From Flavobacterium sp. WC2421 (GTDB taxonomy: Bacteria; Bacteroidota; Bacteroidia; Flavobacteriales; Flavobacteriaceae), in NCBI RefSeq assembly GCF_040822115.1, contig NZ_CP162004.1, positions 1,178,001 through 1,242,000 on the forward strand: a stretch of 64,000 bases of DNA. Direction: 5' to 3'. Each line of letters opens with the position of its first letter. Position 1 is the stretch's first letter. Under the pieces are notes generated by a model. The model worked only from the letters and a program-made list of their open reading frames with translations. It ran no database searches and was not told where the DNA came from. A program made the position numbers and the translations under genes. Of the stretch, positions 13,807 to 52,946 are shown one piece after another.

Positions 13807-16581
13807 ATGGATAGGTTTTCATTTTTAAACGCAGCACATACAGAATTTTTTGCACAATTATACGATCAGTACTTAGAGAATCCAGATAGCGTTGAGCCAA
13901 GTTGGAGAAGTTTTTTTCAAGGTTTTGACTTTGGAATGGAAACTTATAACGGTGAAAATCCAGTTCAGCATATAATCAGTGAAACTTCAGGCAACGTTGA
14001 CTATTCTCAAATTTCTGAAAAACTTCAAAAAGAGTTTAATGTTTTGAAATTAGTTGAAGGATATCGTTCTCGTGGACATTTGTTCACCAAAACTAATCCA
14101 GTAAGAGACAGAAGAACATTTGAGCCAACACTTGAGATTACTAATTTTGGTCTTTCAACTGCAGATTTAAATACTGTTTTTGATGCGGCAAAAGTAATAG
14201 GTATAGCTCCTTGTACATTAACAGATATAATAAAACATTTAGATAACATTTACTGTCAACACATTGGTGTGGAGTATATGTATATTAGAAAACCAGAGAT
14301 TATTCAATGGATTCAAGATAAACTAACTGTAAACGACAATCAGCCTAATTTCTCTGCAGACGAAAAGAAATCAATTTTAAATAAATTGAATCAGGCCGTT
14401 TCTTTTGAAAATTTCTTACATACTAAATATGTAGGACAAAAACGATTTTCACTAGAAGGGGGTGAGTCTATTATTCCTGCACTTGACGCTTTAATCGAAA
14501 GAGCAGCCGAAAAAGGAGTGGAGCAGTTTGTAATGGGAATGGCACACCGTGGCCGTTTGAATGTTTTAGCAAATATATTTGGGAAGTCTACTCAAGATAT
14601 CTTCGGAGAATTTGACGGGAAAGATTACGATCAAGAATATTTTGATGGGGATGTTAAGTACCACTTAGGACTCACTGCTGATAAGATCACGAGCACAGGT
14701 AAAAAAATCAATATTAATTTGGCTCCAAATCCTTCTCACCTTGAAACAGTAGGTGCGGTAATTGAAGGAATTACAAGAGCAAAACAAGATAAATATTTTC
14801 CAAATGATTTTTCTAAAGTATTACCAATCGCCGTTCACGGTGATGCTGCGATTGCAGGACAAGGGATACTTTACGAAATTGTGCAAATGGCACAGTTAGA
14901 TGGATACAAAACAGGTGGAACCATACATATTGTAATTAACAATCAAGTTGGGTTTACTACAAATTATTTAGATGCTCGTTCGTCAACTTATTGTACGGAT
15001 GTGGCCAAAGTAACATTGTCACCAGTATTACACGTAAATGCAGATGATCCTGAAGCGGTAGTTCATGCTATTGATTTTGCTTTGGATTTCAGAATGCAAT
15101 TTGGTCGTGATGTATTTATTGATTTATTAGGATATAGAAAATACGGTCATAATGAAGGTGATGAACCTCGTTTTACACAACCCGTATTGTATAAAATTAT
15201 AGCGAAGCATAAAAACCCAAGGGATCTTTACGCAGAGAAATTATTAGCAGATGGTGTTATTGATTCTAATTTTGTAAAAGGACTAGAAGTTGAGTACAAA
15301 TCTAGAATGGAAGAGAATTTGGAAGCATCTCGTAAAAAAGATTTGACCATTATAACTCCATTTATGAGAAATGAATGGTTAGGTTTTGAGCAAGTTACCG
15401 ATAAACAAATGTTGCAAAATGTTGAAACTTCTTATTCAAAAGAAGGTTTGACTCAAGTAGCAAATGCAGTTTGTAATTTACCTTCTGATAAAAAATTCAT
15501 CAGCAAAATCCAAAAACTAATCAACGACAGAAAAACGATGTTTTTCGAAACGAATAAATTAGATTGGGGAATGGCGGAACATTTAGCTTATGGCTCGTTA
15601 TTGCAAGAAGGATATGATGTACGTATTTCTGGGCAAGACGTAGAAAGAGGAACTTTTTCTCACCGTCATGCCGTAGTAAAAGTGGAAGATTCTGAAGAAG
15701 AGGTAACATTAATCAATAGCTTAGAAGGTAAAAAAGGAAATTTTAATATCTTTAATTCTCTTTTATCTGAATACGGAGTGCTGGGATTTGATTATGGTTA
15801 TGCTTTAGCAAATCCTAATACGTTGACTATTTGGGAAGCTCAATTTGGAGATTTCAGCAATGGAGCTCAAATCATGATTGACCAATACATCTCTTGTGGA
15901 GAAGATAAATGGAATAATCAAAACGGTATCGTGTTGTTATTGCCACATGGATATGAAGGGCAAGGAGCTGAGCATTCATCAGGAAGAATGGAGCGTTACT
16001 TACAGCTTTGTGCAAGACAAAATATGTTTGTGGCCGACTGTACCACTCCAGCGAATTTCTTTCACTTGCTAAGAAGACAAATGAAAACAAAATTCCGTAA
16101 ACCATTAATTGTGTTTACACCTAAGAGTTTATTGCGTGACCCAAGATGTGTATCTACCATCGAAGAGTTAGAAAACGGAAGTTTCCAAGAAACAATAGAT
16201 GATGAAACAGTAAATAAAGCAGATGTGAAAACATTGGTTTTCTGTACGGGTAAATTCTATTATGACATTACTGCCGAAAGAGAAAATAATGGTCGTAAAG
16301 ATGTGGCAGTGGTAAGAATCGAACAATTATTTCCGCTTCCAGTAGAACAATTAAAAGCGATTATTGCACTATATCCTAATGCCGATGATTATGTTTGGGC
16401 ACAAGAAGAACCAAAAAACATGGGAGCTTACAGCTTTATGTTGATGAACTTCAACTTGGTAAAATGGAGATTAGCTTCGTTAAAAGCATATTCAGCATCA
16501 GCATCAGGAAGTTACACAAGAGCAAAACGTCGTCAGGCCGATGCTATAAAAATGGTTTTTGATAAAAATTTATTCAATTAG
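13807..16581 (+). CDS. sucA: 2-oxoglutarate dehydrogenase E1 component
   Basis: A 924-residue thiamine-diphosphate enzyme that decarboxylates 2-oxoglutarate in the TCA cycle and transfers the succinyl group to the E2 lipoyl arm. The family's N-terminal segment is present (FLNAAHTEFFAQLYDQYLEN), as are the FSLEGGESIIPAL start of the catalytic core, the ThDP/Mg region GDAAIAGQG ... NNQVGFTT, and the C-terminal transketolase-like domain (HGYEGQGAEHSSGRMERYLQ). Length is normal. sucB follows 182 nt downstream, with a structured repeat element starting 2 nt after the sucA stop. Confidence 0.97.
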   Translation: MDRFSFLNAAHTEFFAQLYDQYLENPDSVEPSWRSFFQGFDFGMETYNGENPVQHIISETSGNVDYSQISEKLQKEFNVLKLVEGYRSRGHLFTKTNPVRDRRTFEPTLEITNFGLSTADLNTVFDAAKVIGIAPCTLTDIIKHLDNIYCQHIGVEYMYIRKPEIIQWIQDKLTVNDNQPNFSADEKKSILNKLNQAVSFENFLHTKYVGQKRFSLEGGESIIPALDALIERAAEKGVEQFVMGMAHRGRLNVLANIFGKSTQDIFGEFDGKDYDQEYFDGDVKYHLGLTADKITSTGKKININLAPNPSHLETVGAVIEGITRAKQDKYFPNDFSKVLPIAVHGDAAIAGQGILYEIVQMAQLDGYKTGGTIHIVINNQVGFTTNYLDARSSTYCTDVAKVTLSPVLHVNADDPEAVVHAIDFALDFRMQFGRDVFIDLLGYRKYGHNEGDEPRFTQPVLYKIIAKHKNPRDLYAEKLLADGVIDSNFVKGLEVEYKSRMEENLEASRKKDLTIITPFMRNEWLGFEQVTDKQMLQNVETSYSKEGLTQVANAVCNLPSDKKFISKIQKLINDRKTMFFETNKLDWGMAEHLAYGSLLQEGYDVRISGQDVERGTFSHRHAVVKVEDSEEEVTLINSLEGKKGNFNIFNSLLSEYGVLGFDYGYALANPNTLTIWEAQFGDFSNGAQIMIDQYISCGEDKWNNQNGIVLLLPHGYEGQGAEHSSGRMERYLQLCARQNMFVADCTTPANFFHLLRRQMKTKFRKPLIVFTPKSLLRDPRCVSTIEELENGSFQETIDDETVNKADVKTLVFCTGKFYYDITAERENNGRKDVAVVRIEQLFPLPVEQLKAIIALYPNADDYVWAQEEPKNMGAYSFMLMNFNLVKWRLASLKAYSASASGSYTRAKRRQADAIKMVFDKNLFN

Positions 16582-16582
16582 A

Positions 16583-16683
16583 AGCTATTTCCTGCTGTAC
16601 GCTGTATCTTTCTTGTCCAGAACTTGTTTCTGGATCCTGAACTAAATTTAGGACAAGAAAGGATGCCGCTACCATCAGGGCTA
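16583..16683 (+). repeat. Structured dispersed element, copy 1 (sucA-sucB spacer)
   Basis: The left block AGCTATTTCCTGCTGT plus CGCTGTA and the right block GATGCCGCTACCATCAGGG almost match copy 2 at 34026-34130. Between them a perfect 10-bp stem is formed by TTTCTTGTCC (16609-16618) and GGACAAGAAA (16651-16660). GTATC/GATGC extend it, and CCTG/CAGG pair outside it. In copy 2 the same stem is TCCCGAT/ATCGGGA: the bases change but pairing holds. The element starts 2 nt after the sucA stop, on the coding strand. It may belong to a known Flavobacteria RNA motif such as Flavo-1, from memory and untested. Confidence 0.7.
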
Positions 16684-16763
16684 AAAAATAAAACAAACAA
16701 TAAACAGTAGTTGTTTCAATAACAACTCAAACAATAAAATTCATAATTTAAAAATTATACAAG

Positions 16764-17981
16764 ATGATTTTAGAAATGAAAGTCCCATCACCAGGGGAAT
16801 CTATAAAAGAAGTTGAAATTGCAACTTGGTTAGTAAAAGACGGAGATTATGTAGAGAAAGACCAAGCAATCGCTGAGGTTGATTCGGACAAAGCAACTCT
16901 TGAATTACCTGCGGAAGCTAGTGGAATTATCACATTAAAAGCAGAAGAAGGTGATGCAGTAGCAGTAGGGGCAGTAGTTTGTTTAATTGATACTGCGGCA
17001 GCAAAACCATCTGGTTCAGCTCCTGCACCAGCAGCAGCTCCAGTTGCCGAAGCGCCAAAAGCAGCTCCAGCTCCAGTAGCAGCAGCTCCAGCAGCGACAT
17101 ATGCTTCAGGAACGCCTTCTCCAGCAGCAAGAAAAATATTAGACGAAAAAAATATAGCTCCAACAACTGTAACAGGAACTGGTAAAGACGGAAGAATAAC
17201 TAAAGATGATGCTGTAAATGCAGTACCATCAATGGGAACTCCCACAGGAGGAAGCCGTGGAAGTGAGCGCACTAAATTATCAATGTTGCGTCGTAAAGTA
17301 GCGGAGCGTTTAGTTGCTGCCAAAAATGAAACGGCTATGTTAACTACTTTCAACGAAGTAAACATGACGCCAATCAACTTGATCCGTAATCAATATAAAG
17401 ATGAGTTCAAGGCAAAACACGCTGGTGTAGGTCTTGGGTATATGTCTTTCTTCACAAAAGCAGTAACAAGAGCATTAAAATTATATCCAGATGTGAATTC
17501 TATGATGGATGGTGATTATAAAATTGCTTATGATTTCTGTGATATTTCTATCGCAGTATCTGGACCAAAAGGATTAATGGTTCCTGTTGTTCGTAATGCT
17601 GAGAATTTAACGTTCCGTGGTGTTGAAGCGGATATCAAAAGATTAGCAATTAGAGCACGCGATGGACAAATTACTGTTGATGATATGACTGGTGGAACAT
17701 TTACTATTACTAATGGTGGTGTATTTGGGTCTATGTTGTCTACACCTATTATCAATCCTCCTCAATCTGGAATTCTTGGAATGCACAACATTATCGAGCG
17801 TCCTATTGCAGTAAATGGGAAAGTAGAAATTCACCCAATGATGTATGTAGCACTTTCATATGACCACAGAATTATTGATGGTCGTGAGTCTGTTGGTTTC
17901 TTAGTAGCTGTAAAAGAAGCTTTAGAAAACCCAATGGAATTATTGTTAGACAACAATCCTAAAAGAGCTTTTGAACTATAA
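16764..17981 (+). CDS. sucB: 2-oxoglutarate dehydrogenase E2 component (dihydrolipoyl succinyltransferase)
   Basis: A 405-residue E2 enzyme that takes the succinyl group from SucA and passes it to CoA. One lipoyl domain (residues 1-77) carries the attachment lysine Lys43 in [10 protein letters not shown]. An Ala/Pro-rich linker (about 78-112), the E3/E1-binding domain (about 115-153, [13 protein letters not shown]) and the catalytic domain (about 175-405) follow. The catalytic motif is SYDHRIIDG, with His368 and Asp372. The gene ends just before a strong bidirectional terminator. Confidence 0.97.
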
Positions 17982-31233: not shown

Positions 31234-31880
31234 TTTTTACAGTCTAAAGCTTTTTAAACATATAGGTCATTTAAGCTTTTTAAACCATTAAGGGATTAAG
31301 TTTCATTAAGTATTTATAACCATTTAAGGCTTTTAAGGTCATATAAGTTATTAGCTTAATTTTCTTAATTTCTTAATGGTTTTTGTAAATCTGCTTGTAG
31401 TTTTTGTTTCACAAAGAGCCGCAGAATAACCGCAAAGTCTCGCTGAGGCTTTTTAACCTATAAGTCATATAAGTTTTTTAGTTGTTTGTTTCGCAAAGAA
31501 TCACAAAGTAAACTCAAAGTCCCGCTGAGCTTCATTTTCTTAATTCCTTAATGGTTTAATAACAAAATCTTTGTGATTCTCTGTGAAACAATCTTCTCTC
31601 ACAATCTAATAAGAAAAGCGTATCTGAGTTGTATGTTTAAGATAGCGATTGTTTGAAATACTTTTTACACAAAGCTTATATGGCCTTAGATACTTTATAT
31701 GGTTTGTTTTTTATTGCTTTGCGACTCCAGTTAAAATACTTTTCAACACAATCAGCTAAAAAAAACTTATATGACTTATATGCTTTAAAAAAAACAAGCC
31801 CAAAACGGTCAAAAAACGTATCTGACTTATCTCTTTATATTTTGATTGTCTATTTTTGTTTTAACCAATTCCTTTTTTTA
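31234..31880. repeat. Mosaic of decayed dispersed repeats
   Basis: A 647-nt non-coding stretch made of related units. One family (CTTAATTTCTTAATGGTTT) occurs at 31365-31383 and 31537-31555, with an inverted copy at 31281-31300. Another (GTCATATAAGTT) occurs at 31338-31349 and 31464-31475, with an inverted form near 31764-31779. A third, GTTTCGCAAAGAATCACAAAG (31488-31508), has an inverted partner at 31569-31589 matching 19 of 21, and a looser direct copy near 31407-31437. No ORF here looks real. Confidence 0.7.
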
Positions 31881-34001
31881 ATGAAAAAACTACTCTTTAT
31901 AATGGCAATACTTCCAACAATAACAACTTTTGGACAAAACAACAATCCAATCCAATACCCTAAAACTCCAAAGGGAACAGTTGTCGACCAGTATTTTGAT
32001 ACAGTTGTCAATGATCCGTATCGTTGGCTAGAAGACGACCGCTCTACGGAAACCGCAGCCTGGGTAAAAGCACAAAACGAAGTCACTTACGGCTACCTAA
32101 GCCAAATTCCTTTTCGAGAAGCACTAAAAAACCGAATGGAAAAACTATGGAATTATGAAAAAATAGGTGCGCCATCCATAGAAGGGAAATTTACCTATTA
32201 TTCTAAAAATAACGGACTGCAAAACCAGTCGGTGGTGTATCGCAAAGACGCCTCGGGTATTGAAGAAGTTTTCCTAGATCCAAATACTTTTTCCAAAGAT
32301 GGAACGACTTCTCTAGGCGGAATGGATTTTTCCAAAGACGGTTCTATAGTAGCCTATGCGATATCCGAAGGAGGAAGCGACTGGCGAAAAGTAATTATTA
32401 TGGATGCTTTGTCCAAAAAAGTAATTGAAGACACCCTTGTCGATGTCAAATTTAGTGGCATTTCATGGCTTGGAAACAAAGGGTTTTATTACTCTAGTTA
32501 CGAAAAACCAAAAGGAAGCGAACTCTCGGCCAAAACCGACCAACATAAACTCTATTTTCATAAACTAGGAACCGCTCAAAAAAAGGATAGAATCATCTTT
32601 GGTGAAGACCAAAAACGAAGATATGTAGGCGGTTATGTGACCGAAGACGATAATTTCTTAGTCATCACAGCGGCCAATTCGACTTATGGAAATGAATTGT
32701 ACGTCAAAGATTTAAGAAAGGCTAATAGTCCTATTGTGACACTTGTTGATAATTTCAATAGTGATAATACCATTCTTGACAATCAAGGAAGTAAACTCTT
32801 TATCGTTACCGATTGGAAAGCACCCAATAAACGCGTGGTAGCGGTAGATATAAAAAATCCAACACAAGAAAACTGGAACGATTTTATCCCCGAGACTCAG
32901 GATGTTTTATTTCCATCAACAGGAGGCGGATGCATTTTTGCAAATTACATGAAAGATGCCGTATCAGTAGTGCAGCAGTACGATTACAATGGCAAAAAGA
33001 TGCGTGAAATCCAGTTGCCGGGACTGGGAACAGCAGGAGGTTTTGGCGGAAAGATAAACGACAAAACACTCTATTATTCATTTACAAACTACACAACGCC
33101 AGGAACCATTTTCTCATTTGAACCCAAATCAGGAAAATCAGCGGTGTATGCCAAGCCAAAAGTAGATTTCAACAGCGACGATTACGAGTCAAAACAAGTA
33201 TTTTATTCGTCGAAAGATGGAACCCAAATCCCCATGATTATCACTTACAAAAAAGGATTAAAACAAAACGGACAAAACCCAACCATGCTTTACGGTTACG
33301 GAGGATTCAATGTGAGTTTAACGCCTAGTTTTAGTATTGCCAATGCCGTTTGGATGGAAAACGGAGGTGTTTTTGCTGTTCCTAACTTGCGTGGAGGAGG
33401 AGAATACGGTAAAAAATGGCACGATGCCGGAACCAAAATGCATAAACAAAACGTCTTTGATGACTTCATCGCTGCAGCTGAATATCTAATTGACCAACAG
33501 TACACCTCTCCAAACTTTCTTGCCGTTCGTGGTGGGTCAAATGGAGGTTTGCTAGTAGGAGCCACCATGACCCAGCGTCCTGATTTGATGAAAGTCGCTT
33601 TGCCGGCCGTGGGCGTTATGGACATGTTGCGCTACCATACCTTTACGGCAGGAGCGGGCTGGGCTTACGATTACGGAACCGCGCAGGACAGCAAAGAAAT
33701 GTTCGAATACATCAAAGGGTACTCACCAGTGCACAACGTAAAAGCAGGCACACACTATCCCGCGACGATGGTCACTACGGGCGATCATGATGACCGAGTG
33801 GTGCCAGCACACAGCTTTAAGTTTGCTGCCGAGTTGCAAGAAAAACAAGCGGGAAGCAACCCAACCTTAATTCGCATTGATGTCAAAGCGGGTCACGGCG
33901 CAGGAAAATCGGTGGCGGCAACCATTCAGGAAAACGTCGATATCCAAGCCTTTACCTTATACAACATGGGCATCACCCAATTGCAAAAAGAAGACAACTA
34001 A
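31881..34001 (+). CDS. Prolyl oligopeptidase (S9A family)
   Basis: A 706-residue exported serine peptidase with a signal peptide ([18 protein letters not shown]). A seven-bladed propeller domain (about 80-440) is followed by the alpha/beta hydrolase domain. The catalytic triad is Ser553 in RGGSNGGLL, Asp637/638 in GDHDDRVVP and His672 in KAGHGAGKS, at positions close to those of mammalian prolyl oligopeptidase. It cleaves short peptides after proline. An in-frame extension back to 31653 runs through repeats and is rejected. Parts of the 3' half are strikingly G+C-rich for this genome. Confidence 0.94.
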
Positions 34002-34025: not shown

Positions 34026-34130
34026 GAGCTTTTTCCTGCTGTCCGCTGTATTCCCGATAAATAAAAACTACGGCTTGAAAAAAGCCTTGTTTTTCTAAAT
34101 CGGGAGATGCCGCTCCCATCAGGGCTAGGG
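34026..34130 (+). repeat. Structured dispersed element, copy 2 (downstream of prolyl oligopeptidase)
   Basis: Starts 24 nt after the peptidase stop, same strand, ahead of the terminator at 34159. The outer blocks TTTCCTGCTGTCCGCTGTA and GATGCCGCTCCCATCAGGG match copy 1 except at single positions. The inner stem is TCCCGAT (34052-34058) with ATCGGGA (34099-34105), different in sequence from copy 1 but still paired. Inside it, AAAAAC-TAC-GGCTT and AAGCC-TT-GTTTTT form a second hairpin. Position suggests a 3'-UTR RNA element. Confidence 0.7.
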
Positions 34131-34158
34131 ACAAAGAGGAATTAACAACTTTATTTTC

Positions 34159-34191
34159 ATAAAACGCTATTCGAAAGAGTAGCGTTTTTTT
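34159..34191 (+). terminator. Terminator of the prolyl oligopeptidase transcript
   Basis: AAAACGCTA (34161-34169) pairs with TAGCGTTTT (34180-34188), followed by a T run. It places the structured element inside the 3' untranslated region. Confidence 0.8.
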
Positions 34192-34550
34192 GTTACTAGT
34201 CATCAAGTTCTCTTTGTCATCTCGAAGCAAGAGAGATCACATAAAGAAAATAGAAAAGGATAATAAGATTGATTCTTTCCTTGCAATGGCGAGAAACGGA
34301 GTCGCTTTACGTTTTGACAAAAATAACTCTGACAAACTACAACCACCAAATCCCTGCCCGTTATTTAATTACTTGAACTACAATAGATAACAGTCTGTAA
34401 ATAGGGCTTGTTTTAAACTTTTTTAGTATCTTTAATATCCTAATAATGAAAGTTTAGTTGCTATAATAAGGCAAATAACACACTGTATTTAAAAGACTTT
34501 TTACCACGATATTTAAAAGCCTCACTTATTTTTATTTTAAAAATGAAGCT
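34192..34550. other. Intergenic stretch with a dispersed-repeat fragment
   Basis: No gene seen. GTCATCTCGAAGCAAGAGAG at about 34216-34235 resembles the 'GTCATTTCGA...GAAATC' short dispersed repeats I recall from Flavobacterium genomes; only this fragment is visible. The last 150 nt are plain A+T-rich sequence before the GH130-type gene. Confidence 0.4.
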
Positions 34551-52337: not shown

Positions 52338-52895
52338 TTATGCTTGAGTTTCTTCGTTGTTTTCTTCAGCAGCAGGAGCTTCTTCTTCAGTTGAAGCTTC
52401 AACTTCTTCAGCAACTGGATTTGCAGCAGCAATTGCGTCAGCTTCTGCTTGTGCAGCTGCAGCTAAACGTTTTGCATTTACATCTTGTTCTGCTTTGAAA
52501 GCTTTTGCTTTAACATCAGCTTGTGCTTTAGTTAAACCATCTTTCTTAGCATCAACAGTTCCGTTTTTTGCTTCTAACCAAGTAGCTAATTTTGCATCAG
52601 CTTGTTCTTGAGTTAAGGCACCTTTACGAATACCACCATCAAGGTGATGTTTCAATAAAGCTCCTTTGTAAGAAAGAATTGCTTTAGCAGTATCAGTTGG
52701 TTGTGCACCATTGTGCAACCATTTCACTGCGCTATCAAGGTTTAAGTCGATAGTTGCTGGGTTTGTGTTTGGATTGTAAGTACCGATTTTCTCTAAGTAT
52801 TTACCATCTCTTTTTGAGCGTGCATCTGCAGCTACAACCCAGTAAAAAGGTTTTCCTTTTTTACCGTGTCTTTGTAATCTAATTTTTACTGACAT
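52338..52895 (-). CDS. rpsP: 30S ribosomal protein S16 with long C-terminal extension
   Basis: A 185-residue S16. The core is the first 80 or so residues (VKIRLQRHGKKGKPFYWVVA, then DARSKRDGKYLEKIGTYNP). Most bacterial S16 proteins end near there. Here about 100 further residues follow, first Lys/Ala-rich (about 95-155), then strongly acidic (EEVEASTEEEAPAAEENNEE). The tail is probably helical and then disordered. It heads the rpsP-rimM-trmN6 run. Confidence 0.95.
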   Translation of the reverse strand: MSVKIRLQRHGKKGKPFYWVVAADARSKRDGKYLEKIGTYNPNTNPATIDLNLDSAVKWLHNGAQPTDTAKAILSYKGALLKHHLDGGIRKGALTQEQADAKLATWLEAKNGTVDAKKDGLTKAQADVKAKAFKAEQDVNAKRLAAAAQAEADAIAAANPVAEEVEASTEEEAPAAEENNEETQA

Positions 52896-52946
52896 AATCT
52901 TGTATGATTAAATTTTGAGGTACTCGACCTCTGTTAATTAAGGGTG

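Follow-up and report, generated by a model that had tools for sequence, protein, structure and literature searches.

Two elements in the window (the whole stretch of DNA that was analysed, 64,000 nucleotides of Flavobacterium sp. WC2421) raise the question of how an inner stem can change completely from one copy to the next and still be paired. The initial annotation had described one element between sucA and sucB and a second further downstream, with common outer blocks and unrelated, paired inner stems, and the letters confirm both at these places. Its guess of Flavo-1 was also right. In a search with the Rfam model RF01705, both copies matched on the minus strand over the full length of the model (1-76 of 76) and above the Rfam gathering score of 42 bits, and the E-values of 7.5e-14 (copy 1) and 3.8e-7 (copy 2) exclude chance for the family match. 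The features are listed below by window position, with the limits of each copy as read by eye and the Rfam span in brackets.

13807..16581, plus strand: sucA (2-oxoglutarate dehydrogenase E1), upstream of copy 1 (NCBIfam NF006914, 1208 bits)
16583..16682 (Rfam 16584-16686), minus strand: Flavo-1 copy 1, AGC...GCT, in the sucA-sucB gap (RF01705, 71.9 bits)
16583..16607, no strand assigned: copy 1 left shell, AGC...GTAT on the plus strand (letters and parse)
16608..16661, no strand assigned: copy 1 exchangeable core hairpin, 54 nt, CTTTCTTGTCC...GGACAAGAAAG (letters; other cores at the orthologous site in relatives G044 and G150)
16662..16682, no strand assigned: copy 1 right shell, its first base the bulged G (letters and parse)
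16764..17981, plus strand: sucB (E2 succinyltransferase), downstream of copy 1 (NCBIfam TIGR01347, 474 bits)
31653..34001, plus strand: ORF resembling oligopeptidases, upstream of copy 2 (oligopeptidase B is the top NCBIfam match, below the cut-off)
34027..34126 (Rfam 34028-34130), minus strand: Flavo-1 copy 2, after the 782-aa peptidase-like ORF (RF01705, 47.6 bits)
34027..34051, no strand assigned: copy 2 left shell (letters and parse)
34052..34105, no strand assigned: copy 2 core hairpin, 54 nt, TCCCGAT...ACTACGG...ATCGGGA (a type found in 12/111 own copies)
34106..34126, no strand assigned: copy 2 right shell, its first base the bulged G (letters and parse)
34161..34191, plus strand: terminator-like hairpin with a T run, downstream of copy 2 (letters)

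Copy 1 begins 1 nt past the sucA stop codon (ORF end 16581), and 81 nt separate its end from the sucB start (16764). Its 54-nt core is bigger than the stem quoted in the initial annotation and contains two smaller hairpins on the plus strand. In RNA folding against 200 shuffles, 0/200 were as good as copy 1 on the minus and plus strands alike; for copy 2, 2/200 were as good on the minus strand and 0/200 on the plus strand. The terminator-like hairpin at 34161..34191 is present in relatives with and without Flavo-1 (e.g., G044 and G025). Parts of window positions 34106-34250, which cover the right end of copy 2 and this hairpin, match several places over about 2 kb of the corresponding region in G044 (G044:C1:1129391-1131078). 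Elsewhere in the window, an S16-Flavobacteria ribosomal protein leader was matched on the minus strand at 52907-52938 (37.2 bits, cut-off 35.7, E = 1.1), upstream of a same-strand ORF (52338-52895).

The initial annotation had made its reading depend on further copies in related genomes and on inner arms that pair. Flavo-1 was detected at E <= 0.01 in 15 of 21 genomes (own genome included), with 7 to 110 matches apiece, and, under stricter filters across the order, in 90/296 genomes and 25/90 genera at E <= 1e-5. Matches at E <= 1 number 114 in the own genome (G000), and 102 of them exceed the Rfam cut-off (best 150 of 1147 candidates scored); they are scattered across the 3.83-Mb contig with no cassette array. 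The nearest named relative by SucB is Flavobacterium frigoris (97%), and the closest relative compared is G044, with SucB 99% identical and 82 matches at E <= 0.01. For further analysis, 111 own copies (the 3 weakest were left out) and 70 G044 copies were extracted. Overlap with ORFs of at least 80 aa was absent for 109/111 own copies, with 2 overlapping, and was seen for 3/70 G044 copies. The orientation of flanking genes relative to the window strand was ++ for 40, -- for 30, -+ for 22 and +- for 15 own copies (n = 111; 4 lacked one neighbour in the stretch), and the G044 set was more biased (n = 70; ++ 33, -- 14, -+ 14, +- 6; 3 lacked one neighbour).

The extracted copies follow two outer types. 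Type A reads, in window orientation, AGC, 2-6 nt, CC-N1-G-C-T-N2-loop-N4-N5-loop-(A)AT-core-G-AT-loop-N5'-N4'-loop-N2'-A-T-C-N1'-GGGCT. Type B has a different outer part, GTCGGGCT...ATCCCTCACGC, with a side hairpin as read here. A pattern rule assigned 85 own copies to type A and 26 to type B (n = 111). The core stem opens after AT, with the bulged G opposite, and the copies repeatedly show one C.T mismatch and two internal loops of three bases. Among the 98 own copies that could be parsed (13/111 could not, nor could 13/70 from G044), N2 formed a Watson-Crick pair in 93, and every pair type was represented (AT 53, GC 21, TA 15, CG 4); N4 was so paired in 90, N5 in 85 and N1 in 88, the last being misread by the parse in type B copies. 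Core pairs were Watson-Crick at 942/966 positions in these copies and at 513/531 in 57 parsed G044 copies, so the inner arms do pair. Of the 98 cores, 95 were distinct.

How the cores came to differ was examined at flank-matched sites in G000 and G044. From the 70 G044 copies, 48 sites were matched, 30 through both flanks and 18 through one, with a median flank identity of 81.8%. This number is a lower bound, as L018, L027, L059, L070 and L181 also hold a G044 element that is unpaired here and flanks were matched in one orientation; 3 inverted matches exceeded 400 bp, with their own copies outside the 48 pairs. The outer type was identical at 48/48 sites (41 A, 7 B by rule). Core identity, in contrast to shell identity, was close to that of random pairs. 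It reached 0.75 or more in 12/44 measurable pairs, compared with 11.5% of random pairs, and averaged 0.56 in matched versus 0.50 in random pairs; 4/48 pairs had no measurable core, and cores of unparsed copies were taken by a fallback rule that included some shell bases. Shell identity was 0.83 in matched (37 pairs) versus 0.71 in random pairs. Therefore, cores are almost randomised, while shells keep site identity.

The distribution of individual cores is as follows. In the sucA-sucB gap of three close genomes the insertion point is common, and the cores are unrelated: 54 nt in G000, CCACGC...GCGTGG in G044 and CTTTTTCTTTTT...AAAAAG in G150. The CCACGC core occurs in 13/70 G044 copies versus 3/111 own copies, and the ACTACGG core of copy 2 in 12/111 own copies versus 0/70 in G044. 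The exact ACTACGG pattern has 10 occurrences in G000, 10/10 of them inside Flavo-1 matches, and this core is found in both outer types (type B shells at L197 and L198). One 29-nt core is common to four own copies. Most matched sites keep position and outer type between species, and cores are replaced as blocks by cores found at other places in the same genome. The complete stem change between the window copies is best read as mainly whole-core replacement, not point-by-point compensation. As the core was exchanged as a block, the "compensatory change" of the initial annotation misdescribes these two copies.

Stepwise compensation does occur as well, at some sites. At the copy 2 site, four relatives share a GTGGCGAA...CCGCCAC-type core with outer stems CTCTC (G044), CTCTT (G150), TTCTT (G121) and CTGTT (G053), and the partner arm fits in 3/4, with a C.A mispair in G044. 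In the sucA-sucB elements, N1, N2, N4 and N5 were Watson-Crick in 17/17 parsed (16 distinct, as the L101 and L203 gaps are identical), with two or three pair types each; this count leaves out L113 and L229, whose gaps hold no element. Part of the apparent core turnover could consist of several small changes rather than one exchange.

A stricter parse, in which 28/48 pairs were usable and 22 of these were replaced type A pairs, found N1 changed in 7, N2 in 10, N4 in 7 and N5 in 10, compared with shuffled-pair expectations of 12.3, 13.3, 9.9 and 13.2. Replacement peaks in the core and falls off towards the outside, a gradient such as gene conversion would give. A sharp exchange boundary between N1 and N2, suggested by a first parse (N1 changed in 7/26 versus 17.2 expected), was dropped because that parse misreads N1 in type B and the stricter one gave a gradient only. 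The core motif CCTGAACTTGTTTCAGG was considered as an independent dispersed REP and rejected; it has 4 own-genome places (at most 1 mismatch), 3 of them inside two Flavo-1 copies.

Flavo-1 is also gained and lost between relatives. The sucA-sucB gap holds an element in 8/77 loci with sucA adjacent in a first locus set (80 extracted; gaps viewed to 330 nt) and in 13/29 in a second (30 extracted; gaps viewed to 260 nt), which also has one decayed element (L207) and one remnant (L227). Gaps without Flavo-1 include palindromic GTTTAAAGTTTAAGG repeats (L102-L106, L110-L112) and short reading frames (L108, L210, L214, L124, L206, L208, L211, L216, L218). As such gaps often hold an AT-rich palindromic repeat or small genes, this one seems to be a general insertion site. 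The 18 relatives read at the copy 2 site comprise 10 with clear elements, one decayed (G027), one with a remnant-like piece (G059) and 6 with none. Among the relatives without the element, G025 has the terminator-like hairpin in place. A terminator role for Flavo-1 was considered and rejected, as this separate hairpin lies downstream of the copy 2 site in relatives with and without the element. G044 lacks the element at the L089, L002, L041, L186 and L190 sites; at L089 its gap is 0, and the G000 element is flanked by TTATTTT on either side. A AAAGTTCAYTGAACTCC-like repeat is inserted in the Flavo-1 left arm, just before ATC, in L196 (own genome) and L221 (G005), and L187, L200 and L295 end in a piece related to it. 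In L316, the G044 counterpart of L027, the right arm forms a perfect inverted repeat with all internal loops lost, as template switching would give.

We lean towards reading the copies as Flavo-1 in the form of a dispersed intergenic hairpin repeat, with a site-inherited shell, a swappable core and the Rfam strand acting as single-stranded DNA, and consider this rather probable. The outer shell would be inherited at each site, the middle helix would keep its mismatched loops while its pairs covary freely, and the apical core hairpin could have almost any sequence. The Rfam strand may work as single-stranded DNA, for example during replication or repair, and a putative protein might read the folded strand by shape, through fixed loops and any paired core. 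Cores would then move between copies via gene-conversion-like recombination or hairpin template switching, and any effect on sucA or sucB would be a by-product.

Mispairs indicate which strand folds. In G000 and G044 together, the window strand has 41 A.C versus 4 G.T mispairs, and 18 versus 3 in the cores alone (binomial P = 0.0015); L042, L250, L245, L069 and L268 (misparsed or odd) were left out of the count. An A.C on the window strand is a G.U or G.T on the Rfam strand. Sorted by neighbouring genes, the A.C:G.T counts were 14:1 for copies with both genes on the window strand, 11:1 for those with both on the opposite strand and 6:1 for each of the two mixed arrangements. Replication classes were assigned from GC skew of the extracted loci only (window strand leading-like in 70/111 own and 38/70 G044 copies), and the counts for the two were 14:2 and 11:2 in G000 and 5:0 and 11:0 in G044. 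Further genomes were counted over the variable pairs and cores together. The top-scoring copies of two further genomes gave 16:2 in G010 (cores 13:1; 34/35 copies parsed) and 11:1 in G004 (cores 10:0; 33/35 parsed), although all copies were found with a model that favours G.U on the Rfam strand, which may inflate the bias, especially in these two. No bias was observed in G016 (1:1; cores 0 A.C and 1 G.T; 15/30 copies parsed). Mispair tolerance singles out the Rfam (minus) strand as the folding one, independent of host-gene or replication direction. A cis-acting mRNA structure is expected to track transcription direction, and the mispair bias does not, which argues against a cis role in mRNA.

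The Bacteroidetes-type promoter motif, taken as TAnnTTTG with spacing 2-3, was found in the 80 nt upstream on the Rfam strand of 23/181 copies and was not enriched compared with the other flanks and strands (27, 33 and 36/181). Given a folding strand that ignores gene and replication direction and the lack of promoter enrichment, we favour a hairpin that acts at the DNA level, in the way of REP or attC sites, over a regulatory part of the sucAB mRNA. The same two observations favour single-stranded DNA over RNA. However, low-level antisense RNA of the Rfam strand would leave the same mispair mark, as would deamination of the exposed strand. Of the alternatives in the initial annotation, a structured RNA or a mobile hairpin repeat, the data suit a dispersed hairpin repeat better than a structured mRNA segment: copies in the own genome show almost no preferred orientation to genes, and wobbles are tolerated on one fixed strand regardless of gene direction.

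The alternative that survives best is that Flavo-1 is a structured noncoding RNA transcribed from the Rfam strand of each copy, with selection on the RNA keeping the pairing, and we regard it as unlikely. Rfam lists Flavo-1 (RF01705) as an sRNA gene, and the table of the 2010 study marks it as probably RNA ("y") and as not cis-regulatory (PMC2864571); covarying pairs and G.U-type tolerance on the Rfam strand fit as well. On the other hand, about 100 copies occur in a genome and their cores are individual (95/98 distinct), the upstream promoter motif is not enriched, and G.U-type pairs are scarce, with 18 A.C on the window strand in the counted cores. Furthermore, PMC9723704 describes F. psychrophilum hits as sense or antisense indistinctly, many of them outside transcribed regions.

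Flavo-1 copies could also be sockets of single-stranded DNA at which a putative hairpin-reading recombinase of Flavobacteria swaps apical cassettes among about 100 chromosomal sites while the outer arms are kept, in the manner of attC without integrons. This is a doubtful proposal, to which we give less credence than to an RNA. Searches for Y1 transposases and integron integrases in 21 genomes tied no recombinase or transposase to Flavo-1, a point against the main reading too. No genome (0/21) had an integron integrase over the NCBIfam TIGR02249 cut-off, and weak matches also occurred in all 14 controls. One tyrosine recombinase frame outside the window (G000:C1:2617911-2618714) is partly like integron integrases (pieces of 120 and 102 bits, cut-off 265); the Flavo-1 copy at 2619762 is about 1 kb away.

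Movement of a REP-type element by a Y1 (RAYT) transposase is very unlikely. In its favour are the high copy number, the imperfect intergenic hairpins with a single folding strand and 3 weak Y1 matches in the own genome, but Y1 transposases do not follow Flavo-1 copy number in the 21 genomes. Four of these, G004 (102 matches), G011 (47), G012 (12) and G013 (15), have Flavo-1 with no Y1 match at E <= 0.001, and G018 has 3 Y1 matches and no Flavo-1. Among 33 Y1 matches listed, 10 loci were examined, and Flavo-1 lay within about 1.5 kb of 0/10. The target-site duplication of a classical MITE (DDE transposase) gave no signal over the copies: the longest flank repeat averaged 6.0 versus 5.89 (sd 0.09) for shuffled flanks (118/181 copies usable), with TTATTTT on both sides at one site, L089.

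No more probable is a role in the host mRNA, as a hairpin that regulates or stabilises it and that might, for example, set the sucA:sucB ratio. Copy 1 does lie between two same-strand genes of one complex, and copy 2 between a stop codon and a terminator-like hairpin. However, gene orientation in the own genome is nearly indifferent, mispair tolerance ignores transcription direction, and in many relatives the sucA-sucB gap either lacks the element or contains other insertions. It is hardly credible that palindrome-making mutation (template switching) produced the pairing incidentally and that no function is selected. The nearly perfect palindromes of the cores and the now perfect inverted repeat in the G044 counterpart of L027 would fit, but parsed copies keep mismatched loops rather than smoothing them out, a strand bias would be unexpected and the same cores recur in different shells.

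Overall, the family is known and was rightly guessed, and the stems are best taken to differ through exchange of whole core hairpins, in a dispersed repeat of which one strand folds. Covariation is a main ground for calls such as the Rfam treatment of Flavo-1 as an sRNA. If whole paired cores move as DNA blocks, covariation in Flavo-1, and perhaps in other high-copy families, overstates RNA function. Sorting mispair bias by host-gene direction is a simple test of the folding strand, and the matched sites form a set for measuring hairpin exchange. An account of Flavo-1 as a recombining DNA repeat was not found in the openly licensed literature searched.

Compared with known systems, the copies agree with Rfam Flavo-1 in whole-model matches over the gathering score and differ from the sRNA-gene view in being a dispersed repeat with an exchangeable core, no promoter enrichment and a folding strand independent of gene direction. 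Like ERIC and BOX, they are intergenic palindromes in both orientations, and BOX is modular; we know of no exchange of an apical hairpin within a kept outer shell in either. Integron attC sites likewise have a conserved basal part with unpaired bases, a variable terminal structure and one folded strand that is used, whereas Flavo-1 occurs as single dispersed copies, with no cassettes seen and no integrase over the cut-off in the 21 genomes. With REP/REPIN elements and their RAYT (TnpA-REP), Flavo-1 shares high-copy intergenic imperfect hairpins and a population of variants within the genome, and may share recognition as a single strand, the mispair bias of 41 to 4 marking one strand. However, Flavo-1 has no Y1 gene association, and REPs conserve the hairpin itself, whereas in Flavo-1 the outer arms stay and the core changes.
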